Of a stretch of DNA of 51,717 nucleotides, positions 27,439 through 42,626 are shown piece by piece. Location of the stretch: positions 1 to 51,717 of the forward strand of contig DAIDHS010000019.1 in assembly GCA_027451985.1 (NCBI GenBank). Reading direction: 5' to 3'. Under the pieces are notes generated by a model that worked only from the letters and a program-made list of their open reading frames with translations, made no database searches and was not told the origin of the DNA. Source of the stretch: Elusimicrobiota bacterium (GTDB lineage Bacteria > Elusimicrobiota > Elusimicrobia > UBA1565 > UBA9628). The position numbers were made by a program, and so were the translations under genes. How positions within the stretch are numbered: the stretch's first letter is position 1; each line of letters opens with the position of its first letter.

Positions 27439-27441
27439 GCA

Positions 27442-28170
27442 ATGTTCGCCGAAGGCTACATCGGAATCGCAGGAACCATCGGGGTGGGCAAGTCCACGTT
27501 GACCGTGGAGCTCGCGCGCGCTCTCAATTTCGAGCCCATCCTGGAGGAGGTCGACGGCAACCCCTACCTGGAAAATTTCTATCACGACATGAAAACCTAC
27601 GGGACGATGATGCAGGTCTGGCTCCTGAACCACCGCTTCCGGCAGCACCGCGAGTTCGTCACGCGCATCAGCCTTGGTAAAATCCGCGGCGTGGTGCAGG
27701 ACCGCACCATTTGGGAGGACACCATCTTCGCGCGGATGCTCAACGCCCACCCCGACAAGATCATCTCCGACATCGACTACAACACCTACCTGGATCTCTT
27801 CGACAACATGGTCCTGCGCGAGCTGGTGTTTCCGCAGCTCCTGATCTACCTCGACTGCCGCCCCGAGATGGCGATGGAGCGCATCAAGATGCGCGGCCGG
27901 CCCATGGAGCAGAGCATCGACTTGGAGTACCTGCGTTTCCTCAAAACGAACTACGAGCAGTTCATCGGGGAAATGGAGCGGGCCGGCGTGCGCATCCTGC
28001 GCATCAATTGGGAGAAGTTCATGCCGATTTCCGAGGTGGTCCGGATGGTCCACGAGTATTCGCTTAAGCCGTCTAGCTTCACCAAGTGGGTGCGGCCTCT
28101 GCGTCGTCCGCCGACCGACGGAGGCGCCAAGACGACCCGCATTGCCGCGCCCGGGAAGGTGAATGTCTAG
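27442..28170 (+). CDS. Deoxynucleoside kinase (dAK/dGK/dCK family)
   Basis: 242 residues. P-loop GIAGTIGVGKSTL (residues 8-20), the catalytic EEVDGNPYLENFY and DRTIWEDTIFA (the DRS-like motif) and lid Arg residues in ERIKMRGRP identify the family that phosphorylates deoxynucleosides for salvage. Substrate preference cannot be read. The last ~30 residues are a basic extension beyond the usual fold. Its stop overlaps the start of pgeF by 8 nt. Confidence 0.88.
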   Translation: MFAEGYIGIAGTIGVGKSTLTVELARALNFEPILEEVDGNPYLENFYHDMKTYGTMMQVWLLNHRFRQHREFVTRISLGKIRGVVQDRTIWEDTIFARMLNAHPDKIISDIDYNTYLDLFDNMVLRELVFPQLLIYLDCRPEMAMERIKMRGRPMEQSIDLEYLRFLKTNYEQFIGEMERAGVRILRINWEKFMPISEVVRMVHEYSLKPSSFTKWVRPLRRPPTDGGAKTTRIAAPGKVNV

Positions 28171-28897
28171 CGCCGCGGCCCAAGACGCCGCGGCCTGGAC
28201 CGCGGCGGAGGGGTTTTTTCGCGAGGAACGCCTGGCCCGTTTGGGCGTCGCCCACGGCGTCACCACGCGGGCTTTGGGAAACATGAAAGACGCCAAGCTG
28301 CGGGCGGCGGCCATGGAGAAAGCCGGTCTTGGCGGGCGGCCCCTGTTCGTGCCGCACCAGGTCCACGGGACGCGCGTGGAGCCCATTGAGAGCGCGGCGC
28401 TTGGGGAGGCGCCCAAGGCGGACGGCTGGATTTTCCGCCGCAAGGACGTCGCCGCCGCGGTTTACGCTGCCGACTGCCTGCCGATTTTCATCTGGGAGCG
28501 TTCCGGCGCGGCCTTAGGCGTTTTCCATTCCGGTTGGCGCGGCACCGCGGCCGGCATGCCGGAGACGGCTGCAGCTGCTTTCCGCAAGCACTACGGGCTC
28601 GGGGCGGATCGGCTGTGCGCCGCCGTGGGGCCGCACATCGGGCCGTGCTGCTACAAGGTGGGCGCGGACGTGGCCGGGCGCTTCGCCGCGGCGAGCGTGT
28701 CCCGCCGGAGCGGCGGGCTTTACCTCGATTTGGGCGCCGAGGCCAAGACTCGGCTCGTGCGGGCCGGCCTTGCACCGGAGGCGGTTTCGGTGTGCGAATC
28801 CTGCACGTGCTGCGAGAGCGCGACGTTCTATTCCTTCCGGCGCCAGAAAGAGGACTGCCGCATGATGGCGTTCTGCGCGTATGGCCATGGCTCTTGA
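28163..28897 (+). CDS. pgeF: PgeF/YfiH multicopper-oxidoreductase-fold protein
   Basis: 244 residues. The zinc ligands typical of the family are visible: PHQVHGTRV, AADCLPIFIW, FHSGWRGTAAGM, GPHIGPCCYKV and CESCTCCES near the C-terminus. Members act as purine nucleoside phosphorylases and, in E. coli, as peptidoglycan editing factor PgeF removing L-Ser from UDP-MurNAc. Position near murB/ftsZ genes supports an envelope editing role here. Confidence 0.9.
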   Translation: MSSAAAQDAAAWTAAEGFFREERLARLGVAHGVTTRALGNMKDAKLRAAAMEKAGLGGRPLFVPHQVHGTRVEPIESAALGEAPKADGWIFRRKDVAAAVYAADCLPIFIWERSGAALGVFHSGWRGTAAGMPETAAAAFRKHYGLGADRLCAAVGPHIGPCCYKVGADVAGRFAAASVSRRSGGLYLDLGAEAKTRLVRAGLAPEAVSVCESCTCCESATFYSFRRQKEDCRMMAFCAYGHGS

Positions 28898-30014
28898 GAT
28901 TAGGCCCCGGCCCTGCTTGTCCCGCATCGCCGCGTACGTTCCGGGAAAATCCATCGCGTCGGTCGAGCGGGAGTACGGCTTGAAGCGCGTGATCAAGCTC
29001 GCTTCCAATGAGAACCCGCTGGGCCCCTCGCCCAAGGCATTGAAGGAATTCCGCAAGTCCGCCGCCAAGGCGTTTTTGTACCCCGAGGGCCGAAGCCCCG
29101 AGCTGCGCGAAGCCGTCGCCAAGCTCCACGGCTGGAGCGCCGCGGGCGTCATCGTCGGCAACGGCTCGGACGAGATCATCCGCCTGGTGTGCGAGGCGTT
29201 CCTGGATCCGGGGGACGGCGCGGTCTTTTCCCAGTATGCCTTCCTGCGCTTCAAGCAGCAGGCCCTCCTGATGGGGGCGGAACTGCGCGAAGTTCCGATG
29301 AAGGATTGGAAGCACGACTTGAAGGCCATGGCCGCCGCCGCCCAGTCCGGCGCCAAGGTCGCCTTCGTCGCCAGTCCCAACAATCCGACGGGCACCTACA
29401 GCACGGAAGCGGAGATCTCGGAGTTCCTGCGCGCCGTTCCGTCCTCGGTGGTCGTCATCCTTGATGAAGCCTACTGCCAGTTCGCCGCGGCGCTCGGCGA
29501 CTATCCCGAGAGCCTTCCCGGTTTGGTGCGGCGTCATCCCAATTTAATCGTTTTGCGCACTCTCTCCAAGGCCTATGGACTGGCCGGCCTGCGGCTGGGT
29601 TACGGCGTGGGGCATCCCGAGCTTATCGGCTGGCTCGACCGCATCCGCATGCCCTTCAACGTCAATTTGCCCGCCCAGAAAGCCGCGCTGGCGGCCTTGG
29701 AGGACAAGGCGTTCGTGGCCAAGAGCGTGGCTTTGGCGCGCCGGGAAGGCGCGAAGCTGGCCCGAGCCTTGAACGGCTGCGGCTTGGACGTCGTCGGAGA
29801 GAGCGCGGCCAATTTTTTATTCGCGCGTTCGCCGATTCCCGGAGCCGAGCTGTTCGAGTCCTTGCTCCGGCTGGGCGTCATCGTGCGCCCGCTGGGCGAG
29901 TACGGCCTTGCGCACCACGTCCGCGTGAGCATCGGCAACGCGGCGCAGAACAAGGCCCTGGTTTCGGCCGTCAAAATCGTTTTGGAGAAAACACCCGCGG
30001 CGCTTTCCGCTTAA
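28881..30014 (+). CDS. hisC: Histidinol-phosphate aminotransferase
   Basis: 377 residues; fold-type I PLP enzyme. Features: KLASNENPLGPSP, GNGSDEIIRLV, SPNNPTGTYS, DEAYCQF and the PLP-lysine segment RTLSKAYGLAGLRLGYG. HisC and closely related aromatic or MurNAc-pathway aminotransferases are hard to tell apart; no other his genes are in the window, so substrate is tentative. It overlaps the end of pgeF by 17 nt and is followed 3 nt later by cmk. Confidence 0.88.
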   Translation: MAMALEIRPRPCLSRIAAYVPGKSIASVEREYGLKRVIKLASNENPLGPSPKALKEFRKSAAKAFLYPEGRSPELREAVAKLHGWSAAGVIVGNGSDEIIRLVCEAFLDPGDGAVFSQYAFLRFKQQALLMGAELREVPMKDWKHDLKAMAAAAQSGAKVAFVASPNNPTGTYSTEAEISEFLRAVPSSVVVILDEAYCQFAAALGDYPESLPGLVRRHPNLIVLRTLSKAYGLAGLRLGYGVGHPELIGWLDRIRMPFNVNLPAQKAALAALEDKAFVAKSVALARREGAKLARALNGCGLDVVGESAANFLFARSPIPGAELFESLLRLGVIVRPLGEYGLAHHVRVSIGNAAQNKALVSAVKIVLEKTPAALSA

Positions 30015-30017
30015 GAC

Positions 30018-30713
30018 ATGGCTCGGAAAAAAAGAAGAAAGGGATTCGTCATCGCGATGGACGGGCCGGCCGGAGTCGGCAAATCGGCGGTCGGCCATTT
30101 GATCGCGAAGAAGCTGGGCTACGGTTTCCTCAACACGGGGGAAATGTACCGGGCCCTAACCTGGAAGGCGCTGGAACGGGGGTTCGCTCCGGAGGACGGC
30201 CCCGCCGTCGTGGCTCTGGCTCAAAAGCTGAAATGGGAATTTCGGACTACGGCAGACGGGAGGCTCAAGACCTACGTGGACGGAGAAGACGTGGGCGCGC
30301 ACATCCGGGACGAGCGGGTCAGCGCCAACTCCAGCGTCGTCGCGGCCCACGCGGGCGTGCGGCGCCTCATGTGCCGGCTGCAGCGGCGTCTGGGCAAGGA
30401 CGGCGGCGTGGTCATGGAAGGGCGGGACATCACGACCCACGTCTTCCCGGACGCGGAGTTCAAGATTTACCTGGACGCCTCGGTCGAAGAGCGGGCCGAC
30501 CGCCGTTACCGCCAGCTTAGGGCCGCGGGCAAGCCCGCCGACCGGCAAAAAATCAAGGAAGGCATCTTAAAGCGCGACTTGAACGACTTGCAGCGGAAGA
30601 TTAATCCTCTCTCGCGTGCCGCGGACGCGATGGCCATCGACTCGACCAAGTTGACTTTGCATCAAGTGGCCAATAAAATATTGAGAGCCGTCAAGAATGC
30701 CTCTTGCGCATGA
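30018..30713 (+). CDS. cmk: Cytidylate kinase
   Basis: 231 residues; phosphorylates CMP and dCMP. P-loop AMDGPAGVGKSAV (about residues 13-25), NTGEMYRALT, CMP-binding segment MEGRDITTHVFPDAEFKIYLDAS and the closing INPLSRAADAMAIDST are canonical. The order cmk, plsC-like, rpsA-like is a widely conserved arrangement. It overlaps the next gene by 17 nt. Confidence 0.96.
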   Translation: MARKKRRKGFVIAMDGPAGVGKSAVGHLIAKKLGYGFLNTGEMYRALTWKALERGFAPEDGPAVVALAQKLKWEFRTTADGRLKTYVDGEDVGAHIRDERVSANSSVVAAHAGVRRLMCRLQRRLGKDGGVVMEGRDITTHVFPDAEFKIYLDASVEERADRRYRQLRAAGKPADRQKIKEGILKRDLNDLQRKINPLSRAADAMAIDSTKLTLHQVANKILRAVKNASCA

Positions 30714-31299
30714 TCGCCTGCCTCCGTTCCACCGCGTCTGCCGATGGGTCATCAATGCCTCGGCGCGCGCCTTCTGGGGCCTCCGGGTCAGCGGCCTTGA
30801 GCACATTCCGGCAGACGGCCCGCTCATCATCGCGGGCAACCACGCATCCTTGGCCGACGCGCCTTTTTTATTCTGCGCCGCCGGCTCCAGGCGCCTCGTG
30901 TCCTTCCTGGCAAAGGCCGAGCTTTTCCGCAACCCCGTTTCATCCTGGTTTTTCACGAACAGCGGCTGCATTCCTCTTGACCGCAGCCGCGGGGACGTCT
31001 CCGCGATGCGCGGCGCCCTGGAGTTTCTCGGACGCGGCGGCTGTCTGGGCTTGTTTCCGCAAGGAACCCGCGCGCGGCCAGGCAAAGAGCCCAAGCTCAA
31101 GCCGGGCTTGGGATTTTTGGCCGCGCTGGGCAAGGCTCCGGTGGTTCCAGCCCGGCTCGTCGGCATGGACCGGTTCCCGTTCGCCAGGCCTTTGTCGATC
31201 CGTTTCGGGCCGGCCATGGAGTTTTCGGGCGATCCGCACAGCCGCGAAGACTGCGTCGCCTTCGCGCAACGCGTCATGACGCGCATTTTCGAGCTTTAA
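30697..31299 (+). CDS. plsC: 1-acyl-sn-glycerol-3-phosphate acyltransferase
   Basis: 200 residues. The LPLAT motifs are clear: NHASLAD (NHxxxxD catalytic), SGCIPLDR and FPQGTRARPG, with the late VPARLVG motif. It acylates lysophosphatidic acid at the inner membrane to form phosphatidic acid. Start overlaps the end of cmk. In several phyla plsC lies between cmk and rpsA, as here. Confidence 0.92.
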   Translation: MPLAHDRLPPFHRVCRWVINASARAFWGLRVSGLEHIPADGPLIIAGNHASLADAPFLFCAAGSRRLVSFLAKAELFRNPVSSWFFTNSGCIPLDRSRGDVSAMRGALEFLGRGGCLGLFPQGTRARPGKEPKLKPGLGFLAALGKAPVVPARLVGMDRFPFARPLSIRFGPAMEFSGDPHSREDCVAFAQRVMTRIFEL

Positions 31300-31317
31300 A
31301 ATTAGGGGGAGACTGAC

Positions 31318-32460
31318 ATGAAAGAAGGAATGGGAGAAAAATCGGGCGAGGAGACTGCCGCGGAGGGCGGGGAAAGCATGCAATCCCTGCTGGAGCAGCA
31401 GGACATGCTCTCCAAAAAGCTTTCGGAGCACCAAGTCGCCTGGGTGAAGGTCATCCAGGTCACCGACAAGGAGGTTTTGGTCGACGTCGGGGAGAAGCAG
31501 GACGGCGCGGTGGCTCTTTCCGAGTTCGAGAAAGCTCCCGCCGCGGGCCAGCGCGTGGCCGTGGTCCTCATGTCCAGGCGCGGCGGCATATCCCTCTCCC
31601 ACAAGCGCGCGACCCTGGAGCTGGGCTGGCAGGCCTGCCGCAAAGCCTACGAGGAGAAAGCCCGCGTGCGCGGCCGCATCAAGTCAGCGATCAAGGGCGG
31701 CTTCCTGGTGGACGTGGGCGGCGTGCCGGGCTTCATGCCGGCGTCGCTCTCCGACTTGCGGCCGGTGCGCAACCCCGAGCGCATGGTCGGTACCGGGGTG
31801 CGCTGCACGATCATCGAATTGAACGAGGCGAAGAAGCAGATCGTCATCTCCCGCAAGGCGGTACTCGAGGAAGAGGCCGGCAAGCGCCGGGAGAAAATCC
31901 TCTCCGAGTTGAAGCCCGGCCAAGTCCGCATCGGCCGCGTCGTCCGTGTCGGTCCTGCGGGCGTGAGCGTGGACATCGGCGGCCTGGAGGGCTTCGTGCG
32001 CCTCTCGGATTTAGCCTGGGGCAAGCCGGACATGAAGGCGTTCGAGCGCGGCACGAAGCTGAGGCTTAAAGTCCTTTCAAAACCGACGGAAGGGGACGAA
32101 CCCGTGCTTTTCGGCGTCAAGCAGCTCCTGCCCAATCCGGCCGACGCCGTCGCCAAGAAGTATCCCGTCAAGATGATTGTCAAGGCGGAGGTCCTCGAAG
32201 TCCTGCCCGAGGGAGTCAAGCTCAAGATCACCGACAAGCAGGCCGGGTTCTGCCCTTTGCGCGAATGCGAGGAAGGTTCGACTTACAAGCCGGGGGACAG
32301 GGTTTCGGCCGTGGTTTTGGGCGTGCGTCCGGAAACCTTCGATGTCGCCGTCTCGCTCAAGCGTTACGCGGAAATCGAGGGGCGCAAGAAGGCCGCCCAA
32401 TACCTGGCGCCACCCAAGCCCTTGACGCTGGGCGATTTGCTCTCGCCCGGAGCTGAATGA
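31318..32460 (+). CDS. rpsA: Ribosomal protein S1-like protein with four S1 domains
   Basis: 380 residues. Four S1 OB-folds can be traced at about residues 38-100, 112-185, 198-270 and 282-362; the second (GRIKSAIKGGFLVDVGGVPGFMPASL) is the most canonical, while the first and fourth are divergent. Shorter than the six-domain E. coli S1, as in many phyla. S1 helps mRNA bind the ribosome. A GGGGGAG SD precedes the ATG. A strong hairpin follows the stop. Confidence 0.9.
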   Translation: MKEGMGEKSGEETAAEGGESMQSLLEQQDMLSKKLSEHQVAWVKVIQVTDKEVLVDVGEKQDGAVALSEFEKAPAAGQRVAVVLMSRRGGISLSHKRATLELGWQACRKAYEEKARVRGRIKSAIKGGFLVDVGGVPGFMPASLSDLRPVRNPERMVGTGVRCTIIELNEAKKQIVISRKAVLEEEAGKRREKILSELKPGQVRIGRVVRVGPAGVSVDIGGLEGFVRLSDLAWGKPDMKAFERGTKLRLKVLSKPTEGDEPVLFGVKQLLPNPADAVAKKYPVKMIVKAEVLEVLPEGVKLKITDKQAGFCPLRECEEGSTYKPGDRVSAVVLGVRPETFDVAVSLKRYAEIEGRKKAAQYLAPPKPLTLGDLLSPGAE

Positions 32461-32466
32461 AGACCG

Positions 32467-32485
32467 CGGCGGCCGTCGGCCGCCG
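32467..32485 (+). other. GC-rich hairpin between rpsA and lysA
   Basis: CGGCGGCC, loop GTC, GGCCGCCG: an 8-bp stem 6 nt after the S1 stop, without a following U-run. It is more likely an mRNA-processing or stability element than a terminator. Confidence 0.5.
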
Positions 32486-32512
32486 TAAGACGCTTCTTCG
32501 CGCCGGAAGGCA

Positions 32513-33748
32513 ATGATCGCTTATCGCGGCGGCAGGCTTCAGCTGGAAGGCTTGCCGGCCAAAAGATTAGCGGCCCGGTTCGGCACGCCGCTCTACGTCT
32601 ACTCCCGAAAAACCGTCCTGGAAAAGCTCGCGCGCATGCGCGCCGCCTTCGGCGGCCTCTCTCCGCTGATTTGCTACGCGCTTAAGGCCAATTCCAACCG
32701 CGCTTTTTGCCGCATTCTTTCGGGCGCCGGCTGCGGCGCGGAAGTCGTGTCAGGCGGAGAAATCCTGCGCGCTCTGGCGGCGGGATTTAAGCCCGGGACC
32801 ATCGTCTATTCCGGAGTGGGGAAAACCCGCGAGGAAATCCGCCTGGCGCTGCGCCGGAAAATTATGGCTTTCAACGTCGAATCCCGGGAGGAGCTTTTTG
32901 CCATCGAGCGCGAAGCGGCTAAGCTGCGCATCGTCGCGCCCATTTCGCCGCGCATCAACGCCGACATCAAGGCCGGCACGCATCCCCACGTGGCCACGGG
33001 CGAAGCGGGAAACAAGTTCGGGGTGAGCCCCGAGGAAGCGCTCATCATCACCCGGCAGGCGCTTAGAAGCCGTCATCTCCGCGTCGTCGGTCTGCAGTCG
33101 CACCTGGGCTCGCAAATCGCGTCCTTGCGGCCCTACAGGGAGCTTTTAAGCGCCCTCGAGAGACTGGCGGCGGCGCTCAAAGGAAGCGGGACGGCGCTTG
33201 AGTTTCTAGATATAGGAGGAGGATTCGCGGTCGATTACGATGAGGGGGGTAAGATTCTGGATTTGAGGGGGCTGGCCTCGCTCGCGAAAAAAACCATGAA
33301 AGCCTGTCCCGGCGCGCGGCTCGTCATCGAGCCGGGACGCTATTTGTCGGCGGACGCGGGCGTTCTGCTCTCGCGCGCGCTTTATAGGAAGGAGAGCTTC
33401 GGCCGCAAGTTCCTGATTGTGGACGCGGCCATGAACGACTTGGCCAGACCCGCGCTCTACGGAGCCAAGCATCCCGTCTGGCCGGAAAAAAAAGACGGCA
33501 AGCGCGAGAAAACGGACGTCGTCGGGCCGATTTGCGAGTCCGCGGACTTCCTGGCGCGCGGTATTTGGCTGCCTAAAACCATGCCGGGAGACCTTATCGC
33601 CGTCTCAAAAGCCGGCGCGTACGGCTTTTCCATGAGCTCGCAGTACAATTCCCGGCCCCGCGCCGCCGAAATCCTGATTGAAAACGGGAAGGCGAGGCTC
33701 GTGCGCCAGCGAGAAACCCTGAAAGAGCTCTTGGGCCCGGAAATCTAG
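32513..33748 (+). CDS. lysA: Diaminopimelate decarboxylase
   Basis: 411 residues; PLP enzyme of the alanine-racemase fold that makes L-lysine from meso-diaminopimelate. PLP-lysine motif YALKANSNRAF (about residue 60), HLGSQI, GGGFAVDY, IEPGRYLSADAGVLL and the C-terminal GAYGFSMSSQYNSRPR are all present. A GGAAGG SD lies 4 nt before the ATG. It ends the recognised part of the long plus-strand run. Confidence 0.95.
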   Translation: MIAYRGGRLQLEGLPAKRLAARFGTPLYVYSRKTVLEKLARMRAAFGGLSPLICYALKANSNRAFCRILSGAGCGAEVVSGGEILRALAAGFKPGTIVYSGVGKTREEIRLALRRKIMAFNVESREELFAIEREAAKLRIVAPISPRINADIKAGTHPHVATGEAGNKFGVSPEEALIITRQALRSRHLRVVGLQSHLGSQIASLRPYRELLSALERLAAALKGSGTALEFLDIGGGFAVDYDEGGKILDLRGLASLAKKTMKACPGARLVIEPGRYLSADAGVLLSRALYRKESFGRKFLIVDAAMNDLARPALYGAKHPVWPEKKDGKREKTDVVGPICESADFLARGIWLPKTMPGDLIAVSKAGAYGFSMSSQYNSRPRAAEILIENGKARLVRQRETLKELLGPEI

Positions 33749-33754
33749 CCTTGC

Positions 33755-33760
33755 TATAAT
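33755..33760 (+). promoter_or_regulatory. Extended -10 promoter of the 93-aa membrane protein
   Basis: TGCTATAAT: a perfect TATAAT with the TG extension, TTGGGC 18 bp upstream as a weak -35. It ends 8 nt before the ATG at 33769, so RNA would start at or near the start codon. Confidence 0.55.
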
Positions 33761-33768
33761 GAAAACCC

Positions 33769-34050
33769 ATGGGAAAGAAGAGTAAGAGAAAGGAAAAAGC
33801 CGCCCAGGCGCTCAATTCGGCCGCGCCCGCGGTCGTTGAACCCATTTCCTCGCGCGGCAAGATGGTGATTGGCCTGGGAATCGGCGTTCTAGCCCTTGGG
33901 TTTTTCGTGTTGACACTGACGGACCGTATGGGGCGCAATTGGGCTTCCAACTTGGCGCCTTTCCTCATCTTGGGCGGCTATGCGGTCATCGGTCTGGGCA
34001 TTTTCCTGCCAGAGCGCGCCGCCCCGTCCCCGGAGCAAAAACCCATCTAA
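33769..34050 (+). CDS. Small two-helix membrane protein (93 aa)
   Basis: Lys/Arg-rich first 11 residues, then a soluble stretch, two hydrophobic segments (about 34-50 and 58-79) joined by TDRMGRNWASN, and a short Pro-rich tail. Not recognised. It has its own -10 box directly upstream and no visible ribosome-binding site. The stop codon is embedded in a terminator-like hairpin. Confidence 0.6.
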   Translation: MGKKSKRKEKAAQALNSAAPAVVEPISSRGKMVIGLGIGVLALGFFVLTLTDRMGRNWASNLAPFLILGGYAVIGLGIFLPERAAPSPEQKPI

Positions 34051-34060
34051 GGGTTTTTTT
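34037..34060 (+). terminator. Terminator-like hairpin at the end of the plus-strand run
   Basis: AAAAACCC, 6-nt loop, GGGTTTTTTT. The loop contains the TAA stop of the 93-aa gene. A-run and T-run flank the stem, so it could act in both directions. Confidence 0.5.
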
Positions 34061-34246
34061 GGCGCCGCAGTCCGGCGTCCACCGCGATTCTTTCCGGTTT
34101 TTTGACCGCCGATCCTTCGGCGGTTTTTTCCCTCGGATCTTTCCTGGGTTTTTTGGCGCGTCCAAATGAGCCAAATTGTTTTCTGGTTTTTTCCGGCCGG
34201 GGCCTATTCTTGGCAACTTTTACGTCCTTTCTTTCCTGGGTTTTTT
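34051..34246 (+). repeat. Degenerate GG-T6 repeat family
   Basis: Runs of six or seven Ts directly after GG occur at 34054, 34098, 34124, 34149, 34187 and 34241. Several share a longer context close to TTTCCTGGGTTTTTTsG. Spacing varies (25-54 bp). The stretch shows no coding character. Confidence 0.5.
34106..34129 (+). terminator. Rho-independent terminator
   Basis: CCGCCGA, loop TCCT, TCGGCGG followed by six Ts. A standard 7-bp intrinsic terminator about 55 nt after the last plus-strand gene. Confidence 0.8.
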
Positions 34247-34294
34247 CGGCCTGCTCCGGACAGCCTGATTTTTGCCTGAAAGTTGCCAATTTTT
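34210..34294 (+). terminator. Long-range inverted repeat ending in a T-run
   Basis: TTGGCAACTTT (34210-34220) and AAAGTTGCCAA (34279-34289) are perfect 11-bp complements separated by 58 nt and followed by five Ts. It could be a backup terminator or the 3' end of a small RNA; nothing else identifies an RNA gene. Confidence 0.4.
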
Positions 34295-34482
34295 GAGGTG
34301 CGCGCGTTCCTCGGTTTTATTTTGCGAAAATTTTGGGAGAAATTTTGCTTTGATTTTGAGTGCTAATTTTAAAAATAGATAAGATTTAGCGAAATATTAA
34401 AAAATAACTTATAAATAAATATAAATTTACTAAATAATAATAGTATTTATAGGTTTATAATCATGATGCTGTGTGGTATATT

Positions 34483-34510
34483 AGGTAACATAATATTTAT
34501 TATCAGTAAT
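34483..34510. other. dif: Candidate dif (XerCD recombination) site
   Basis: Two 11-bp half-sites flank a 6-bp centre. On the minus strand the right half is TTATGTTACCT, close to the conserved XerD-binding half TTATGTTAAAT; the centre is TAAATA; the left half ATTACTGATAA ends in the expected ATAA but is otherwise divergent, as XerC halves often are. It lies in the AT-rich gap where all flanking genes converge. Candidate only. Confidence 0.4.
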
Positions 34511-34555
34511 AATATAAATATCCCCTTTTGAGGGATTTGGCTGGATTGCGGCGAA

Positions 34556-35104
34556 TTAGGCCCTGCCGGTGATGGTCCGGCTGAGCTCGTGGGCCAGTAG
34601 ATAAGCCTTTATTTTGCCAGGACCGGTGAGTTCGTAGCGCCGGGCGCGCTTGGAGCCTGAAGCGATGATTTGGCCCTGCGAGAGCCCTTCCTGGATGGCC
34701 CGGTCTATCCTTAATATGGCGTAACCCGAGGCCCTGAGCCACTTAGCCAGCATTGTAGCCAATGGTTTTGGCTCATTTAAAAGCCTTTCCGCCGCGGCCA
34801 GGAGCACCAGGCAGGCTTCTTTTTCGGAGTGTTCGGCCTTTAATTTGCCGCGCAGCTGGATCTGGCGGTCGCCGCGACGCTCGATAATGGCGTCCCAGGC
34901 GATGTCCGGGACGGCGCCGAGAGCTTGCTGGACTACTGGTTTGCGCTGGATCTGTTCGGGTGTACCGGTGGCTGTGCGTTCTCCAAGTTCCGACAGGAAG
35001 ACGTCTTTTTCTTCGGTGATGAAACTGCGCGGTCCCTCGGCTTCGAATTCGGCGCCGCTGGGCAGCCTAAAGCGCAGGCGCAGGTTCGGTTCCTTGTGTT
35101 CCAT
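34556..35104 (-). CDS. Unrecognised 182-aa protein with a possible winged-helix C-terminus
   Basis: GC-rich coding sequence inside an AT-rich gap. The N-terminal ~45 residues (RLRFRLPSGAEFEAEGPRSF) look like a small beta domain. The C-terminal ~75 residues (LATMLAKWLRASGYAILRIDRAIQEGLSQGQIIASGSKRARRYEL) fit a winged-helix pattern ending in a hairpin and helix. A good sigma-70-like promoter lies just upstream. Not identified; position next to the dif-like site makes a DNA-binding role possible but unproven. Confidence 0.65.
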   Translation of the reverse strand: MEHKEPNLRLRFRLPSGAEFEAEGPRSFITEEKDVFLSELGERTATGTPEQIQRKPVVQQALGAVPDIAWDAIIERRGDRQIQLRGKLKAEHSEKEACLVLLAAAERLLNEPKPLATMLAKWLRASGYAILRIDRAIQEGLSQGQIIASGSKRARRYELTGPGKIKAYLLAHELSRTITGRA

Positions 35105-35302
35105 GACGGGACATCATTGTGGCATAAGAATATATTTATGTCAATAACATGTTGATAACTAATTTTAAGCAATTAAATGTACCTATATTAGACATATAAA
35201 TATTTTATAAGCCGGATTAATGCCGTAATAATGACAGGCAGGTGTGAACAGGCTTGTGGATGGATGGAGGGCAGACGGCCTCAGGCAAAAGGGGTGAAGC
35301 GC
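35105..35302. other. AT-rich intergenic region with a sigma-70-like promoter
   Basis: Upstream of the 182-aa gene, minus strand: -35 TTGACA (35144-35139), 17-bp spacer, -10 CACAAT (35121-35116). The rest is AT-rich to about 35225. TGTTGATAA (about 35150) and TGTGGATGG (about 35255) each resemble a DnaA box, but too poorly to call an origin. No T-run terminator was seen for the porin gene ending at 35303. Confidence 0.5.
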
Positions 35303-36757
35303 TTAGAACCGGCCGGAGACGGCCACGTCAATCTTGTTCGCCGTCCCCCCTCCCGGGTTGATGGCGGGGCCGATTTTGAAGAGGGCGTAGGTGAGAGAAC
35401 AATCCAAGGTGCTGGTCAGGTCGTAGCGCAGGCCGATGTCCCACTCGTTGCCGAGCGTTCCCGAGGTGTTGAGCACGCGATCGGCCTGAAAAAAGTAGTA
35501 ATCGAGGTCCAGGGCCACGCCGTGATAGGCGGGAGGCGTGTAGCCCGCGCCCACGACGTCGATGCCGCTGGCATTGGCGGGCAGGCCGCTGGGGTTGCCG
35601 GTGGGCGTATAGGAGCCGCCAAAGGCGCTGTAAGGAGTCGCGCCGAAGAATTCTCCGAAGCCGTCGCGCGTCAAGCCGCTGAACTGGTGTCCGTGGGACG
35701 GAAAAAACGCGGTGTCCGTGGTGCTGCCGCCGGGGTTGTAGCCGCTGCCGTGGGCCACGGTGATGCGGGCGATGCCTTCGCCCACGCGATAAAGCGGCTG
35801 CTTCCATTTGGCGCGCAGGACCTCGGCGTTGCCGTCGTAGGCCACGCGGCCCAGGGAGTTTCCGGAATTGTCGACCGCATTGTAGCCGTAGCCCTTCTCG
35901 ACGGCGCCCTCGCCGTCAAAGAACAGCGGGCCCACGTTGATGGTGTAGCGCACGCTGGTGAAGCTCCTAAGCGCGTGCGAGACCGTGCAGGCGGCCGGGT
36001 CGCCGCCTGAGCCAGAGACGCAGCCTGGAACCGTTTCCGGCGCCGGGTCGTGCTCCACGAGTTCGTTTAACTGCCAAAGGCCGTCCGTGGGAAAGGCGAG
36101 CGTAAAACCGAAGAGGTCGAGGCTGTTTCCCCCGGCCGGGCTAAAATACCCCCCCGCCGGCGCGCTCGACGCGCTAAAGGCGTCGGTCTTAAAGACGAAG
36201 AGTTCCGTTTTCATGGTCCACCAGGGCAGGGGGATGAGCAGCGTAGCGCCGGTCAGGCCCGCGCCGTCGTCGTCCAAGAGGAGCCCGCTGCCCAGCTTGA
36301 AGGAGCGCCGGCCGATGGTGGCGACCATCCGGGTGTTCAAAAGATTGTGGATGCGGATATAGGCGTTCTCGATGAACGGGGTGAAATCGGTGCTGGGGTA
36401 GTTGGCGGCGACGCGGCTGAAGGGAGTGGGCATGGTGTTCAAGCCGGGCGCCCCAAGGGCGTGTAGCAAAAGTTTGACATCCATGGCTTGATCGCCGCCG
36501 CCCAGGGACCCGAGGTCGATTTGGTTCACGGCAAAGCCCAGGCGCGCGTCGTCGGCCATGAAGGAATGGCTGTTCGAGGCGTGCGTGGTCATGCCGAGGT
36601 TGTCGTAGGCGATGGAGTCGAACTTGTATTGGGCGGTCAAGTCGAGGCTGGCGGCGCGGGCCGCGGATGCCGTGAAGCCAATCGCTGCGAGGCATAGTGC
36701 GGCGCAGAATAGGGTTGAAAGCGGTCTCAAAGGATTGTCGGTCCGTTTTAACGGCAT
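35303..36757 (-). CDS. Outer-membrane beta-barrel (porin-like) protein
   Basis: 484 residues with a signal peptide (LFCAALCLAAIGFTASAARA, cleavage near residue 36). The mature part alternates short beta strands with Gly/Asn-rich loops, begins with LDLTAQYKFDSIAYDNLG and ends in a phenylalanine (VAVSGRF), the usual barrel C-terminus. ENAYIRIHNLLNTRMVATIGRRSFKLGSGLLLDDDGAG resembles alginate-export/porin-type barrels. Substrate unknown. Two cysteines (near residue 240) lie close together in one loop. Confidence 0.7.
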   Translation of the reverse strand: MPLKRTDNPLRPLSTLFCAALCLAAIGFTASAARAASLDLTAQYKFDSIAYDNLGMTTHASNSHSFMADDARLGFAVNQIDLGSLGGGDQAMDVKLLLHALGAPGLNTMPTPFSRVAANYPSTDFTPFIENAYIRIHNLLNTRMVATIGRRSFKLGSGLLLDDDGAGLTGATLLIPLPWWTMKTELFVFKTDAFSASSAPAGGYFSPAGGNSLDLFGFTLAFPTDGLWQLNELVEHDPAPETVPGCVSGSGGDPAACTVSHALRSFTSVRYTINVGPLFFDGEGAVEKGYGYNAVDNSGNSLGRVAYDGNAEVLRAKWKQPLYRVGEGIARITVAHGSGYNPGGSTTDTAFFPSHGHQFSGLTRDGFGEFFGATPYSAFGGSYTPTGNPSGLPANASGIDVVGAGYTPPAYHGVALDLDYYFFQADRVLNTSGTLGNEWDIGLRYDLTSTLDCSLTYALFKIGPAINPGGGTANKIDVAVSGRF

Positions 36758-36826
36758 AACGAAGCTATCCTATCAAAAACGGCAAAAAATGCCTATTGGA
36801 AACGAATGTGGCGAGAGTATTAAACG

Positions 36827-36866
36827 AAAGCCCCCCCGGCGCAAGGCCGAGGGGGCTTTGTTTGTT
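36827..36866 (-). terminator. Terminator of the major porin gene
   Basis: AAAGCCCCC pairs with GGGGGCTTT around a Gly/Cys-codon-like GC loop, just past the porin stop at 36885; on the minus strand the T-rich tail is short (TTTCGTTT). Strong stem. Confidence 0.7.
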
Positions 36867-36884
36867 GACGCTAGGTTAAGCTCT

Positions 36885-38285
36885 TTAGAACTTGACCGAA
36901 ACGTTGGTGCTCGCCAGGAACGCCGGGCTGACCGCACCGCCGTTCAGGTTGTTGATCGCACCGCCGGGCTGGAACGTTCCGATTGCGCCGTTGATGCTGA
37001 CGTTGTCGGACTCGGCCCAGGAGCCGGTCAGGTCGATTTCAGAGCCGATGTGGGAATTGCCGAGAGTTCCAGCTCCAACGTTGGCTTTTTCGCCAGCCAC
37101 GTTTTGATAGCCGTAGTCCCAGTAAGCGATCCCCGCAGTGAGCTTGGAGAGCGCCGCCGGGGTGGTCTTGACGCCGATGCCCCAGATGGTTTGGTTGCCA
37201 ATCTGGTTCAAGGTGCCAAGGCCGAGGCCCGTGCCGCTGCCCAGCGTCGCGGACGCGCCTGCGTATCCGGCAAAGAGGCCGTAGATGCCGCCGGGGCGAT
37301 AGTCCGTGTTGATCGGGGTGAAGTAGCTGTTCAGGCCCGAGCCTCCGGAGAGGTCGGTGAACTCGGCCCAAGGAGAGACCGAGGCTGCAGCGAGGTCAGC
37401 CTTGTAGCCCAAATCCACTTTCAAGGCCCAACCGTTGTAGTTGCTGCTGACGGGTCCCGCAGTGCGATATTCACCGAAGTTCTTGTCGAACTCGGCGCCG
37501 AGAGTCGCGCCCTGCATCATGTATTTGCCGCGCAAGCCGGCGACGAAGAGGTCGTTATCGCCCGCCGCGGTGGTCACGCCGCCATTATGGGTCAGCGAGT
37601 TGTAGAGGTAAACGCCGCCGTTGTACATCTCGTTGCCCTTAGCCGTAACGTTGATGCCGCGCAGGTCAACGTCGCTCTTTTCACTGCCCGCGCCTAAGGC
37701 GGTGACGGTTCCCGCAGTAGTCTTACCCGCGATGCCGGTCACGCCGACCATGTCGTTGGACCAGTCGAAGCGGAAGGCATCCAGGGCGTTGACGGCCAAA
37801 CCGTAGATGTTGTCCTGAGGGCCGTAATAAACCACCAAGTCTCCGGGGTTGCCGTAGTACTGGCGGCCGATCGTGGTGTCCAGGGCGCCGAAGAGCTTGT
37901 CGATCTTCAGGTAAGCCTGGGTCAAGAACGTGTTGCCCAGAAGGCCTGTCGTGCCGTCCAGGGGCTGGCCAGCAACATTGCTTCCGACATTGTTGACACC
38001 GGTCTTATCGGCTACGCCGTAGAGCGAGTTGTTGTTGACCACGCTCGCCATGGCGTGCACGTTGTCGAGCATGTCCCAGCCGGCGTTCAACTGTACCCGG
38101 GTCTGGGCGTCGCCGATTTGGTCGTATGCCTTGCTGTTGAAGTCCGTAACGTTGTTCGCGGAAACGGCCTGCACATCGACTTTGCCGTTGAAGGTGAGGT
38201 TCTTCAACAGCGTATCGGCATTAGCGGCTTGGCTATAAGCGGCGAACATAGCCAGGGCCAATGTCGAGCCTAGGAGCTTCTTCAT
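36885..38285 (-). CDS. Major outer-membrane porin
   Basis: 466 residues: signal peptide MKKLLGSTLALAMFAAYSQAANA, then an amphipathic beta barrel from LTFNGKVDVQAVSANN to the terminal NVSVKF. Repeated strand patterns such as TQAYLKIDKLFGALDTTIGRQYYG match Gram-negative porin-like proteins. Codon use is less GC-biased than that of neighbours, with a consensus promoter, strong SD and structured leader, all signs of very high expression. It follows a different barrel gene (35303-36757) but has its own promoter. Confidence 0.8.
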   Translation of the reverse strand: MKKLLGSTLALAMFAAYSQAANADTLLKNLTFNGKVDVQAVSANNVTDFNSKAYDQIGDAQTRVQLNAGWDMLDNVHAMASVVNNNSLYGVADKTGVNNVGSNVAGQPLDGTTGLLGNTFLTQAYLKIDKLFGALDTTIGRQYYGNPGDLVVYYGPQDNIYGLAVNALDAFRFDWSNDMVGVTGIAGKTTAGTVTALGAGSEKSDVDLRGINVTAKGNEMYNGGVYLYNSLTHNGGVTTAAGDNDLFVAGLRGKYMMQGATLGAEFDKNFGEYRTAGPVSSNYNGWALKVDLGYKADLAAASVSPWAEFTDLSGGSGLNSYFTPINTDYRPGGIYGLFAGYAGASATLGSGTGLGLGTLNQIGNQTIWGIGVKTTPAALSKLTAGIAYWDYGYQNVAGEKANVGAGTLGNSHIGSEIDLTGSWAESDNVSINGAIGTFQPGGAINNLNGGAVSPAFLASTNVSVKF

Positions 38286-38309
38286 TGACGTTTGTCCTCC
38301 TTAATTTCG

Positions 38310-38367
38310 CGTCCGTAAGCCCCGCCTAAGGCGGAGATACGCTTTAATCCCCCGCCTTACGCGGGGG
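38310..38367 (-). promoter_or_regulatory. Structured 5' leader of the porin mRNA
   Basis: Two strong hairpins: CCCCCGC/GCGGGGG (38349-38367) and CCGCC/GGCGG (38322-38334). They lie between the promoter and the AAGGAGG SD (38294-38302). They may stabilise the message or bind a regulator. No known riboswitch was recognised. Confidence 0.6.
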
Positions 38368-38406
38368 CCTACGCTATCCCCAAGGTCGCCCTTGAGGACT
38401 TCCCGG

Positions 38407-38436
38407 ATTCTAGCCAAAGCCCCTGTTTTATGTCAA
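38407..38436 (-). promoter_or_regulatory. Consensus sigma-70 promoter of the porin gene
   Basis: Minus strand: perfect -35 TTGACA (38436-38431), 18-bp spacer, -10 TAGAAT (38412-38407). Predicted start near 38400 gives a leader of about 115 nt. Confidence 0.8.
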
Positions 38437-38459
38437 GAGCTATGATTTGTTATTGAGTG

Positions 38460-39110
38460 TTATTGACTGTTTTTCTGAGCCAGGGCCGCGAAGGAGGTTC
38501 CGGGGTATTCGATGGCGATTTTCTGGTAGTCGGCTTTGGCCTGGACCTTGTCGCCGAGGGTGTCGAGACAGCGGGCCAGGGAGAGGTGCACTTGGGGAGC
38601 CAGGAAGTTGTCCGGATAGGTGTCCAAGAAGCGCTGGGCCGTGGCCGAGGCGTCTTGGCAGTCTCCCATGGCCTCTTGGGTTAGGGCGGTGTCGCCTAAG
38701 GCGAACGGCAGGATGACCGTAGGGCGGCCTTGGTCCAGGACTTTCTGATAGTAGGAGAGGGCATCCTTATATTGGCCCCCCTGATAAAGAACGTCGCCCC
38801 CGAAAAGATCGGCGTAGGCCGTGGCCGGCTGGCCCGGATAGTCGTTTTCCATGCGCTGGATTTCTTCTAAAGCTTCTTTGGCGTGGCCGCTATAGGCTAG
38901 GCTGCGGCTGATAAACAGGCCGTTCCAGGCCGCCGTGGCCTTTTTATGGGCCGTATAAAGGATAAATCCCCCTACCGCGGCCAGGACAAGGATTCCACCG
39001 GCAATGGCGGCCGCTTTTTGGCGATTGAGGCGAATCCAGGTCATTCCCAGGACGAGAAAGTCCTCCAACTCGTTCTGATTCGCCTGCTGCTTGGCCCAGT
39101 GTTTTCCCAT
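38460..39110 (-). CDS. TPR membrane protein (YfgM-like)
   Basis: 216 residues: hydrophilic N-terminus, one transmembrane segment (about 35-53), then TPR-like repeats in the periplasm (ALEEIQRMENDYPGQPATAYADLFGGDVLYQGGQYKDALSYYQKVL and following). Such YfgM/DUF2133-type proteins assist secreted protein folding at the Sec translocon in E. coli. Located just downstream of a tRNA-Arg gene on the same strand. Function by family only. Confidence 0.72.
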   Translation of the reverse strand: MGKHWAKQQANQNELEDFLVLGMTWIRLNRQKAAAIAGGILVLAAVGGFILYTAHKKATAAWNGLFISRSLAYSGHAKEALEEIQRMENDYPGQPATAYADLFGGDVLYQGGQYKDALSYYQKVLDQGRPTVILPFALGDTALTQEAMGDCQDASATAQRFLDTYPDNFLAPQVHLSLARCLDTLGDKVQAKADYQKIAIEYPGTSFAALAQKNSQ

Positions 39111-39156
39111 GACTATCTCCAGTATGCGTCGTTAAAAAGCAATTGAAGCACAAAAG

Positions 39157-39228
39157 TGCCCCGAGAGGGAATCGAACCCCCATCTTCTCCTTAGGACGGA
39201 GTAGCTCTATCCATTGAGCTATCGGGGC
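39157..39228 (-). tRNA. tRNA-Arg(CCU)
   Basis: Full cloverleaf on the minus strand: 7-bp acceptor (GCCCCGA/TCGGGGC), D-arm GCTCAATGGATAGAGC, anticodon loop GTCCTAA with anticodon CCT, T-arm with GGTTCGATTCC. Discriminator A; CCA not encoded. Confidence 0.95.
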
Positions 39229-39249
39229 GTGAATTCGGACGCCTCCGCG

Positions 39250-39777
39250 TCAATAGGCCAGGAGCGCGCGGATTTCGCGGCCGTCGAGCTTGGCGCGGCC
39301 GCGCAGGAATGCGAGCTCCATGAGAAATGAAAGCCCTTCTACGGATCCGCCCAACTTCTCCACGAGCTGGCAGGCGGCCGCGGCGGTCCCCCCCGTGGCC
39401 AGCACGTCGTCAACTACAAGCACCTTCGTGCCCGCCGGCACGGCGTCGGCGTGGGCTTCCAGGCTGTCCTCGCCGTACTCAAGACTGTAGGTGACGCCCA
39501 CGGTCTTGCGGGGCAGTTTCCCCTTCTTTCGGATCAAAGTGACTCCGGCCTTCAAGCGCTGGGCCACGGGACCGGCCAAAAGGAACCCGCGCGACTCGAT
39601 GCCGGCCACCAAAGCGATGCCCCGATCGGCAAACGGCGCCGCCATCTGATCGATGGCGTCCGCGAAGGCCTGCGCGTCGGCCAAAAGCGGCGTGATGTCC
39701 TTGAAGACGATTCCTTTTTTCGGGAAATCCTGAACGTCCTTGATGAGCGAGCGCAGGTCGCGCGCGGCGGATTTCAT
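39250..39777 (-). CDS. apt: Adenine phosphoribosyltransferase
   Basis: 175 residues; salvages adenine to AMP. PRPP loop [17 protein letters not shown], the N-terminal [15 protein letters not shown] and [14 protein letters not shown] are canonical Apt motifs. Its ATG overlaps the sigma-factor stop as ATGA (39774-39777), so it is translated from the sigma-factor mRNA. Confidence 0.96.
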
Positions 39778-40799
39778 TTGGACCCGCGCTTTTTCTTGAC
39801 GATGCGGCGGATGCCGGAGACCATGACGCGGCGGCGGATGACCTGCGGCATCAGGTTCTGCGAGCTTTTCTGCCGGCCGATGGGCTGGCCCAGGATGTTG
39901 GTGCGCACCTGGGGCATGTGCCAGCCGGGCTGCAGGTTGGGGGTGGCGGGCCGAGTCTCGTTGATTTCGATGAGGCCCATTTGATTCGCGATGCGGCGCA
40001 GGCGCAGGAGGGCGCGCTCCTCGATTTGGCGGATGCGCTCGCGGGAAAGCTTCAAGCGCTTGCCGACTTCCTCCAAGGTCATGGGGACCTTGCCGGTCAG
40101 GCCGTGGCGCAGCTCCACGATCATGCGCTCGCGGTCGCCGATTTCCTTGAGCGCCAAGCCCAGCTCGTCGTGCAGCTTCAAAACGGAGATGAGGTTCTCG
40201 GGGGACTGGTTGTCCGACTCGGAGATGGTGTCCTCGATGGTCATGGTCTCGTTGTCGCTGTCGATGGGGGTCTCAAGCGACCCGATGCCCTTGGCGGCCT
40301 CGGCGGCGTCCAAGACCCCGCGCACTTGGCGGGCCGTCCAGTGCATCTTGCGGGCCATCTCGGCCAGCGTCGGGTCGCGGCCCAGGGCCAGGTGCATCTT
40401 CTCCCACTGCTTGAGCCACTTGCGCAGAGCTTCCCAGGCGTGGGGCGGGATGCGGATGGTCTTGGACTGCTCCTCGACCGCGCGGCGGATGGACTGCTCG
40501 ATCCAGTAGGACGCATATGTGGAGAAACGGTAGCCTTTTTTGGGCTCGAACTTGTCCACGGCGTGCATAAGCCCGAGGTTGCCTTCCTCGACCAAGTCCA
40601 GGAAGTCGATGCCCTGGCGGTGATACTTCTTCGCGATGGGCACGACTAGGCGCAAATTGGCCTCCATGATGCTCTGCTTGGCCGCGTGATCGCCGCGCTT
40701 GGCCTTGCGCCAAAGCTTGTGCATCTCCTCGCGATCGACGTTCGCCAGTTTTTGTATGCCCCGGAAATATTGGGTCGTGATGTCCGTCGTTGGTTCCAT
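39774..40799 (-). CDS. Sigma-70 family RNA polymerase sigma factor with a basic C-terminal tail
   Basis: 341 residues. Region 2 is clear ([38 protein letters not shown], then [29 protein letters not shown]), followed by region 3 and region 4.2 ([29 protein letters not shown]). Region 1.1 is absent, so it looks like a group 2 (RpoS/RpoD-like) factor. After region 4.2 a 72-residue tail follows, ending in a very basic [20 protein letters not shown]; sigma factors normally stop near region 4.2. Could be primary or alternative factor; not decidable here. Confidence 0.88.
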
Positions 40800-40845
40800 G
40801 TCTCAGCGCTCCTTGGCTGCGCTCGGGATGAGAATTGCGAAAGAG

Positions 40846-41121
40846 TCAGCGGATTTCAAAAGGAGCCGCCTCCGTGACGGGTTTAAGGTCCTTTTCTTCC
40901 ATGCTGTCTACGCGAGCGAACGGATGACCGGTCTTGATCATGTTCTTAAATCGGGCCAAATCCTCGTTGCGTCCCTGGACTTCCATCTCCACGCTTCCGT
41001 CCGTCCGGTTGCGCACCCAGCCCGCGAGACCCAGGCGCCGGGCGTTTTCCAAGACAAACATCCGGAATCCGACGCCCTGCACGCGGCCGCGGACCCGCAG
41101 GTATAGACGCGTCAAGGGCAA
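40846..41121 (-). CDS. acyP: Acylphosphatase
   Basis: About 90 residues. The signature RGRVQGVGFRMFVLENARRLGLAGWVRNRTDGSVEM holds the catalytic Arg and Asn. The frame is open far upstream into tRNA-Pro, so that part cannot be coding; no ATG fits and the start is taken as TTG 41121 (TTG 41115 is the alternative). It hydrolyses carboxyl-phosphate bonds. Confidence 0.85.
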   Translation of the reverse strand: MPLTRLYLRVRGRVQGVGFRMFVLENARRLGLAGWVRNRTDGSVEMEVQGRNEDLARFKNMIKTGHPFARVDSMEEKDLKPVTEAAPFEIR

Positions 41122-41183
41122 AGCGACATGAATTCTACTATATATTTTCCGCGCCGCGGCCAGATCGGAATCGGAAAAAAGAA

Positions 41184-41256
41184 TCGGGGTACTCAGGCTT
41201 GAACTGAGAACCTCCTGGTCCCGAACCAGGCGCTCTGCCAATTGAGCTATACCCCG
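41184..41256 (-). tRNA. tRNA-Pro(CGG)
   Basis: Cloverleaf on the minus strand: acceptor CGGGGTA/TACCCCG, D-arm with TAGCTCAATTGGCAGAGC, anticodon stem CCTGG/CCAGG with loop TTCGGGA (anticodon CGG), T-arm GTTCAAGCC. Discriminator A; CCA not encoded. Confidence 0.94.
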
Positions 41257-41265
41257 TCAAATCCA

Positions 41266-41337
41266 TCGGGGACCCGGGAATCGAACCCGGAACCTCTCCC
41301 ACCCCAAGGGAGCGCTCTACCATTGAGCCAGTCCCCG
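41266..41337 (-). tRNA. tRNA-Pro(GGG)
   Basis: Cloverleaf on the minus strand: acceptor CGGGGAC/GTCCCCG, D-arm GGCTCAATGGTAGAGC, anticodon stem CTCCC/GGGAG with loop TTGGGGT (anticodon GGG), T-arm GGGTTCGATTCCC. Only 9 nt separates it from tRNA-Pro(CGG). CCA not encoded. Confidence 0.94.
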
Positions 41338-41388
41338 TCTTAGCCGCGCCGACGCACGAGAAGACGGCGCGGGTTTCCTGCAAACGGC

Positions 41389-41772
41389 CTAGCTGGAAAG
41401 TTCCGAGACCAGGCTTTGAATCTCCTGGCGGATTTCCCGCAAAACTTTCGTCGCTGTCCCGGAGACCGCGACGTTTTGGGCCAAGGGCAAATCTCCCGAG
41501 GACGTCTTTGCGCCGCGTTTTCTTTCCAAGAGAGCTTTGCGCGCGCCCTCCAGGGTCAGGCGCCTTTTGTAGACGAGATCCCGGACCAATCCGATGGTCT
41601 CCACGTCCGCGCGGGTGTACCGCCGGTGCCCGCTGGGCCGCCGCGATGGGCGCAGAACGCCCAAGCGCGATTCCCAATAGCGGAGCGTATAGGCCGGCAC
41701 CTGCATCAGGCGGCTAATTTCCCCCATGGTGAAAAACTGCTTGTCCGGGAGGGGCGGAATCTCTAAGGGCAT
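41389..41772 (-). CDS. MerR-family transcriptional regulator
   Basis: 127 residues. The winged HTH runs from FTMGEISRLMQVPAYTLRYWES through RPSGHRRYTRADVETIGLVRDLVYKRRLTLEGARKALLE, typical of MerR/HspR-like proteins. No effector domain or Cys ligands; a short C-terminal helix (REIRQEIQSLVSEL) probably dimerises. It lies 7 nt downstream of the HU/IHF gene, in the same transcription unit. Confidence 0.88.
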   Translation of the reverse strand: MPLEIPPLPDKQFFTMGEISRLMQVPAYTLRYWESRLGVLRPSRRPSGHRRYTRADVETIGLVRDLVYKRRLTLEGARKALLERKRGAKTSSGDLPLAQNVAVSGTATKVLREIRQEIQSLVSELSS

Positions 41773-41779
41773 CGCGGTC

Positions 41780-42049
41780 CTAGTCGCCGGAATCCAGAAG
41801 ATTGCGCGAGGCCTTGAAGCGCACGCCGCGGCGCGGCGGGACGGACACGGATTTCCCCGTTCGCGGGTTGCGGCCCTGGCGCTCGCGGCGCTCCTTGACC
41901 CGGAACGTTCCGAAATTGGAGATGACGACTTTCTCCCCTCTTTGGAGAGCCGCCCGGATCGTGTCGAACGTGGCCTCGACGGCCTGGGCCGCCTCGGTTT
42001 TCGTTCCTAAAATTTTGGAGACTTCCTTAATGACGTCAAGCCTGTTCAT
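41780..42049 (-). CDS. HU/IHF-family DNA-binding protein
   Basis: 89 residues. Matches the family throughout: helical N-terminus, GEKVVISNFGTFRVKERRERQGRNPRTGK with the arm, and the terminal PPRRGVRFKAS. The RNPRTGK arm and length lean towards IHF-alpha-like or HU. It overlaps the upstream bifunctional nuclease gene by 14 nt. Confidence 0.94.
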   Translation of the reverse strand: MNRLDVIKEVSKILGTKTEAAQAVEATFDTIRAALQRGEKVVISNFGTFRVKERRERQGRNPRTGKSVSVPPRRGVRFKASRNLLDSGD

Positions 42050-42626
42050 CCCCGCTCCCTTTTCCCTTTTTGTCGTCCTTCCCGCCGTTGCCCTCTTTCT
42101 TTTCCTTGATGTCCTTGAAGATGTCCTCGGGTTTGAGGTTCTTGAGTTCGGACTTGAACTTGCTGACCTCGTCCTCCGTAATGGGCTTGACCATCGTCTG
42201 GCAGCGGTCGAACACCTTCTCCTCCACGAGGATATTGCATCCGGCCCGCACGGCCAAGGCGATCGCGTCCGAGGGGCGAGAGTCCAGAATCGCGCCGCTG
42301 GCGCCCTTGTGAATGTAGATTTTAGCGTAAAAGGTGTTGTCTTTGATGTCCGAGATGACGACCCGGTCCACTCCGTAGCCCATGGTCTTCAGGGCGCTCA
42401 GAAGCAGATCGTGCGTGAGCGGCCGCGGGAGGACGATGCCGGAAAAACGGATGGCGATGGCCTGGCCTTCCCCCAGCCCGATCCAGATGGGGAGCAGACG
42501 GTTGCCGGTGACTTCTTCCAGAAAGATGATGCACTCATTGGCCGTCGTGGCCAGCGAGTAGATGCGGACTTCCTTTTCCTTGGCCTCCCCGGGCTCTTTA
42601 GGCGAGCCCTTGCCGTTCTTTGCCAT
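42036..42626 (-). CDS. Bifunctional nuclease family protein (DUF151)
   Basis: 196 residues. The core (IIFLEEVTGNRLLPIWIGLGEGQAIAI, PRPLTHDLLLSALKTMGY, SRPSDAIALAVRAGCNILVEEKVFD) is the BFN domain known from plant and bacterial bifunctional nucleases. The C-terminal 45 residues are a charged Lys/Glu/Gly tail. It heads a unit with HU/IHF and MerR. Biochemical role in bacteria is uncertain. Confidence 0.88.
   Translation of the reverse strand: MAKNGKGSPKEPGEAKEKEVRIYSLATTANECIIFLEEVTGNRLLPIWIGLGEGQAIAIRFSGIVLPRPLTHDLLLSALKTMGYGVDRVVISDIKDNTFYAKIYIHKGASGAILDSRPSDAIALAVRAGCNILVEEKVFDRCQTMVKPITEDEVSKFKSELKNLKPEDIFKDIKEKKEGNGGKDDKKGKGSGDEQA

Follow-up and report, generated by a model that had tools for sequence, protein, structure and literature searches.

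The 51,717-nucleotide window analysed here, contig DAIDHS010000019.1 (C19) of a 2,407,815-base Elusimicrobiota metagenome-assembled genome (MAG; GCA_027451985.1, 107 contigs), carries at 34483-34510 a 28-bp sequence that is strongly supported as a real chromosomal dif site of an Elusimicrobiota species, belonging to the known kind. The whole explanation, for which we estimate a probability of about 0.93, combines a chromosomal dif, dimer resolution by XerCD and FtsK, guidance by polar runs of G (G-runs) and a factor acting from the XerD side; the dif itself, its uniqueness and conservation, the switch of polarity at it and the presence of the corresponding genes are observed directly. Judged by homology, chromosome dimers would be resolved by XerC and XerD bound to the two 11-bp arms, FtsK would be steered to dif by G-run polar sequences coming from both sides, and the two chromosome arms would converge at the site. 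On the XerD side, a conserved element and an array of repeats most likely bind an additional factor organising or insulating the recombination complex.

The dif site and its recombination machinery

34483-34510, minus strand: dif site, 28 bp, 11-6-11 layout
34500-34510, minus strand: XerC arm of dif, ATTACTGATAA
34494-34499, minus strand: centre of dif, TAAATA
34483-34493, minus strand: XerD arm of dif, TTATGTTACCT

The initial annotation had pointed to a dif-like 11-6-11 site at this position, and the site indeed exists, reading ATTACTGATAA-TAAATA-TTATGTTACCT on the minus strand from 34510 to 34483. The scan for a single best dif match, which had been suggested as a check, returned this very place as the sole zero-mismatch occurrence of GATAAN6TTATGTTA in the whole 2.4 Mb MAG, giving one copy in the own genome as expected for one dif per chromosome (relatives were checked too). 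With a scoring matrix built from dif sites of relatives, the window's own site being left out, dif scores 46.0 bits and the second-best place in the window 10.0 bits. Matches with no more than one mismatch are found in 37/44 genomes of the family, where the conserved stretch is exactly these 28 bp at the same place with diverged flanks. Phylum-wide, 192/197 genomes have a match, many of them, as control counts indicate, being chance occurrences in AT-rich members. The site starts at 2,508,431 in CP096137 (G013), the family's one complete chromosome, which was read in sampled stretches, and lies at 917 kb in G075, a complete genome (1,643,562 bases) from another family of the class.

The own genome contains XerC-like and XerD-like genes, whose best matches are TIGR02224 and TIGR02225, slightly below the equivalog cut-offs, and an ftsK gene with clear 4TM, alpha and motor domains. 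The C-terminus of this FtsK has a short domain at the place of gamma, to which the Pfam gamma model aligns over 7-60 of its 63 positions; a domain of the same type is present in 58/60 genomes of the phylum, and a comparison of the gamma tail with solved structures gave no match. We infer from sequence that this divergent gamma may read the G-run word described below. The assignment of the site as dif is based on its uniqueness in the genome, on the retention of 28 bp amid diverged flanks and on the presence of XerC, XerD and FtsK genes.

Several observations on dif-like sites and an xer gene were made in passing. Two loci in relatives, L149 (G175:C2:2623 plus and 3121 minus) and L138 (G173:C90:27072 minus and 26582 plus), have dif-like sites as inverted pairs about 490-500 bp apart, which look like pdif modules or Xer-integrated elements. 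Genome G003 has, besides the site at G003:C132:1555, a second one, AAGGCCGATAATACCCTTTATGTTAACT, at L008 (G003:C5:1306), possibly marking a second replicon or an integrated element. Contig PUNF01000111.1 (L120), labelled Clostridia, has a dif of Elusimicrobia type and no syntenic genes, and is probably mis-binned. In loci of family f4 (e.g., L136-L160), GGGGG...TTATTTGTC is conserved 17-26 bp upstream of dif on the XerC side. In L098, an xerD-like frame directly follows recA on the same strand, no common start codon being present at the expected place of the stop-to-stop frame.

Polarity of G-runs and the terminus

1-34482, plus strand: arm with plus-oriented G-runs of at least 5 (48 plus, 9 minus)
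34511-51717, minus strand: arm with minus-oriented G-runs of at least 5 (8 plus, 20 minus)

A search for words oriented toward dif revealed that G-runs (GGGGG, GGGGGA) point at it from both arms. The division of the window at dif into 48:9 and 8:20 is significant (p=1e-6), and the estimated position of the switch is 33,266-35,344. In CP096137 it is fitted at 2,507,632-2,509,359, with 322/356 and 27/113 runs on the two arms and a likelihood gain of 92, compared with at most 14.4 in 200 permutations; GGGGGA and GGGGGG point forward on the arm that leads from about 3.616 Mb past zero up to dif and backward on the other, between dif and about 3.616 Mb, dnaA being located at 3.599 Mb. Along the long arm, stretches with forward genes and stretches with backward genes share one polarity. 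The switch on contig C19 of genome G024 is no more than about 1 kb from dif, and in G075 it also lies around dif. The bias of GGGGGA for the strand directed toward dif amounts to 318:56, 241:111, 383:79 and 96:34 in four datasets. An initial k-mer test of strand bias with stratification by gene direction is affected by open reading frames (ORFs) called on the wrong strand in GC-rich DNA; for G-runs the outcome was checked again with gene direction taken per sample.

The flip of G-run polarity at dif in the window, in CP096137, on the G024 contig and in the complete genome of the other family supports the proposal of the initial annotation that a replication terminus may lie here. Gene directions, which the annotation explained by a terminus together with the site, are as described, with plus-strand genes from 22.4 to 34.0 kb followed by minus-strand genes to the right edge; however, this arrangement is partly inherited synteny and makes weaker evidence. 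The block from murB to miaB around dif is syntenic in most relatives, so that recurrent gene convergence, being shared by descent, is not independent evidence.

Several facts weigh against this interpretation. Left of 22.4 kb the majority of genes are on the minus strand, which qualifies the convergence. A change of GC skew had been named in advance as the check on which the terminus would stand or fall, and taken literally the outcome was adverse, skew being about equal on both sides of dif in the window, with no change. Nor are two-arm fits significant in CP096137, whether for GC skew (permutation p 0.25), gene direction (p 0.12) or strand-corrected third-position skew (p 0.11). In the same chromosome dif is not opposite the inferred origin, leaving very unequal arms of about 1.1 and 2.7 Mb, and G-run density rises toward dif on the long arm (from 5.1 to 7.4 per 20 kb) with no trend on the short one. 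The Pfam score of the FtsK gamma domain is 16 bits, below the cut-off of 30.6. The canonical FtsK-orienting polar sequence (KOPS) GGGNAGGG is barely polar in three datasets of the same family (107:76, 66:53 and 72:62) and polar in G075 only (19:4); both this word and that of the Bacillus subtilis SpoIIIE recognition sequence (SRS) were rejected as the polar word. The adverse skew result counts for little, because GC skew forms no significant pattern in the only complete chromosome of the family: it is G-run polarity, not GC skew, that marks the terminus. G075 has its GC-skew flip at about 758-820 kb, some 0.1 Mb from dif and the G-run switch, an offset that, coming from 20-kb samples, is only suggestive. 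G-run polarity is a practical locator of origin and terminus in genomes without informative GC skew, and it separates the point of dif/FtsK convergence from skew-based measures, a distinction relevant to the question of whether dif is where replication ends.

Two other explanations concern the site and its polar words. The gap at 34310-34545 has a G+C content of 23%, at which AT-rich words are expected, and a dif-like sequence might arise by chance between convergent genes; yet the top matrix score in 2000 shuffles of the gap was 29.5 bits against 46.0 for dif, and conservation in 30-odd genomes, whose flanking DNA is often not AT-rich, already refutes chance, so that this account has a negligible probability. 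More credit, though still on the unlikely side, is due to the view that polar G-runs reflect a passive mutational strand bias rather than sequences orienting FtsK. Homopolymer-like runs could originate from leading-strand mutation bias, and only one of the arms shows a clear increase toward dif, but mononucleotide skew in CP096137 is not significant and the switch occurs within about 1 kb of dif, even though dif lies well away from the point opposite the inferred origin.

XerD-side features: a conserved element and a repeat array

34358-34378, minus strand: conserved element TTTTTAAAATTAGCACTC, XerD side, its TTAGCA starting about 116 bp past the last base of dif
34210-34294, no strand assigned: AAAAGTTGGCAA-type palindromic motifs (34279-34294, 34210-34220)
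34044-34245, minus strand: degenerate AAAAAACCATGAAAG-type repeat array, all copies reading away from dif (near 34231-34245, 34178-34192, 34139-34153, 34114-34128, 34089-34103 and 34044-34058)

Word enrichment near dif disclosed an ordered arrangement past its XerD arm, where the element is followed by AAAAGTTGGCAA palindromes and the AAAAAACCATGAAAG array. The element has the consensus GATTTTN5TTAGCANTC about 117 bp past the XerD arm. All 31/31 family loci have a match to TTAGCAGTC with no more than two mismatches at 115-120 bp after dif, while the longer form AAATTAGCAGTC at 112-115 bp was met in 0/6000 shuffled flanks. The two loci of family f7 have the element at an equal distance, and in family f4 TTAGCA (one mismatch at most) is found at that distance in 15/24 loci versus at most 12% at other offsets; the loci of these two families extend only about 1.5 kb from dif. 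The spacer of about 105 bp between dif and the element is unconserved, with mean identity 0.33 and G+C of 11-54%. The simplest explanation for a near-constant distance across such a spacer is a complex of DNA and protein of which dif is a part.

The AAAAAACCATGAAAG repeats are co-oriented, reach 11 copies per locus and are confined to the XerD side, where within 0.8 kb their density (up to two mismatches) is 247 per 100 kb, against 0.1-0.3 elsewhere and none at all on the XerC side; the enrichment beside dif is more than 1000-fold. The copies in the window are among the more degenerate ones; the array is present in family f7 and absent in f4. Kinship of the genomes inflates the apparent independence of these enrichments, but the presence of the element in three families does not hinge on it. 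Taken together, the sequence data suggest that element and array most likely bind a factor acting on the recombination complex. More tentatively, and at somewhat less than even odds, the dif of Elusimicrobia may possess dedicated accessory DNA, comprising the array and an element some 11 helical turns from the XerD arm, with a bound protein that would organise, license or insulate the terminus.

The XerD-side region may also be read without reference to recombination. Position of the repeats between lysA/m93 and dif, T-runs in the sense of lysA and one perfect intrinsic terminator at 34104-34125 would suit a transcription-termination zone shielding dif from the lysA operon. Hairpins beside the T-runs, however, hardly exceed shuffled controls (35% versus 30% below -5 kcal/mol), which leaves an array of intrinsic terminators unsupported; the gene u182, described below, likewise points at dif from 45 bp away without such an array, and the element at about 117 bp holds its distance in three families though the spacer diverges. 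We consider this reading unlikely. Still less probable is a non-coding RNA with the element as promoter and the repeats as protein-binding motifs, to which one short co-oriented motif in up to 11 copies and an AT-rich -10-like stretch within the element might be related: the array region has no match in Rfam, its folding is weak (mean z of -0.44 for one strand and -0.62 for the other, versus -0.12 in controls), and a promoter does not explain the constant distance to dif over an unconserved spacer. Binding of a factor beside dif is the preferred explanation.

The orphan gene u182 on the XerC side

34556-35104, minus strand: u182, single-copy orphan gene, ending 45 bp from dif and pointing at it

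With genes called as longest ORFs, u182 is single-copy and adjacent to dif in 18 of the searched relatives of family f1 and in most loci of f4, is 1.7 kb from dif in G050 and 12 kb in G075, and went undetected in a number of further families of the class. Sequence comparison with Pfam, NCBIfam, PHROGs, PADLOC and solved structures gave no match. Its predicted structure (mean predicted local distance difference test score, pLDDT, of 84) has a C-terminal winged helix closest to MarR-type regulators, the match over the whole chain being not significant. The idea that the array is simply read by u182 is weakened by family f7, which has the array and the fixed element and in which u182 was not found; the protein is one candidate binder of the element or array, the latter occurring also in a family without detected u182.

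Comparison with known systems

For a chromosomal dif, the usual view is that its 28 bp suffice along with the recombinases, FtsK and the sequences guiding FtsK. To our knowledge, limited to open-access papers, a near-fixed element, a one-sided array and a linked gene constitute a variant for which no description is found beside a chromosomal dif. If true, a second element at near-constant distance across families, together with the one-sided array, would amount to an additional level of control over the terminus. Plasmid Xer sites cer and psi carry accessory sequences at a set distance on the XerC side of the core, bound by PepA/ArgR/ArcA. The present locus resembles them in that a conserved sequence keeps a set distance to the Xer core and differs in that it is chromosomal, has this sequence on the XerD side only, uses other sequences and adds a repeat array.

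With dif/XerCD of Escherichia coli and B. subtilis the site shares 28 bp, the 11-6-11 layout, the conserved XerD arm TTATGT, one copy per chromosome and the set XerC, XerD and FtsK, whereas its XerC arm is ACTAAYGATAA, the XerD arm of the family ends in TTACAT, GC skew is uninformative, the XerD side has the element and array, and the arms of CP096137 are very unequal. A dif was predicted previously in one Elusimicrobia genome (Kono et al., 2011, PMC3025954). G-runs are similar to KOPS and Architecture Imparting Sequences (AIMS; PMC5357621, PMC5993296) in being G-rich, strand-biased, directed at dif and switching there; here, however, the words are G5 runs and GGGGGA instead of GGGNAGGG, they are seen without significant GC skew, FtsK gamma is divergent and the short arm has no gradient toward dif. 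In archaeal dif/XerA, which works without FtsK, short polarised words GTTG/GTTC switch at dif, and dif of Sulfolobales is reported to have a one-sided conserved flank, a 13-bp sequence (PMC2958812). Polar short words switching at dif and a one-sided conserved flank are common to both systems, but the words differ (G-runs, not GTTG/GTTC) and the flank contains an array rather than the 13-bp sequence.

Gene neighbourhood

22393-34050, plus strand: conserved block on the XerD side, murB-ftsQ-ftsA-ftsZ-pilT-like-dNK-laccase-hisC-cmk-plsC-rpsA-lysA-m93

Products of this block include a pilT-like ATPase, a deoxynucleoside kinase (dNK), a laccase-like protein and the small protein m93; the location of ftsQAZ and rpsA near dif is noteworthy. 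Two plus-strand genes at 7014-9968, for a phosphoesterase-family protein and a 508-aa orphan, lie in a stretch of lower G+C that was possibly acquired. At 35303-36757 there is a 484-aa orphan, conserved next to u182 in 20 relatives, which has no match in Pfam or NCBIfam and looks like a secreted or outer-membrane protein.
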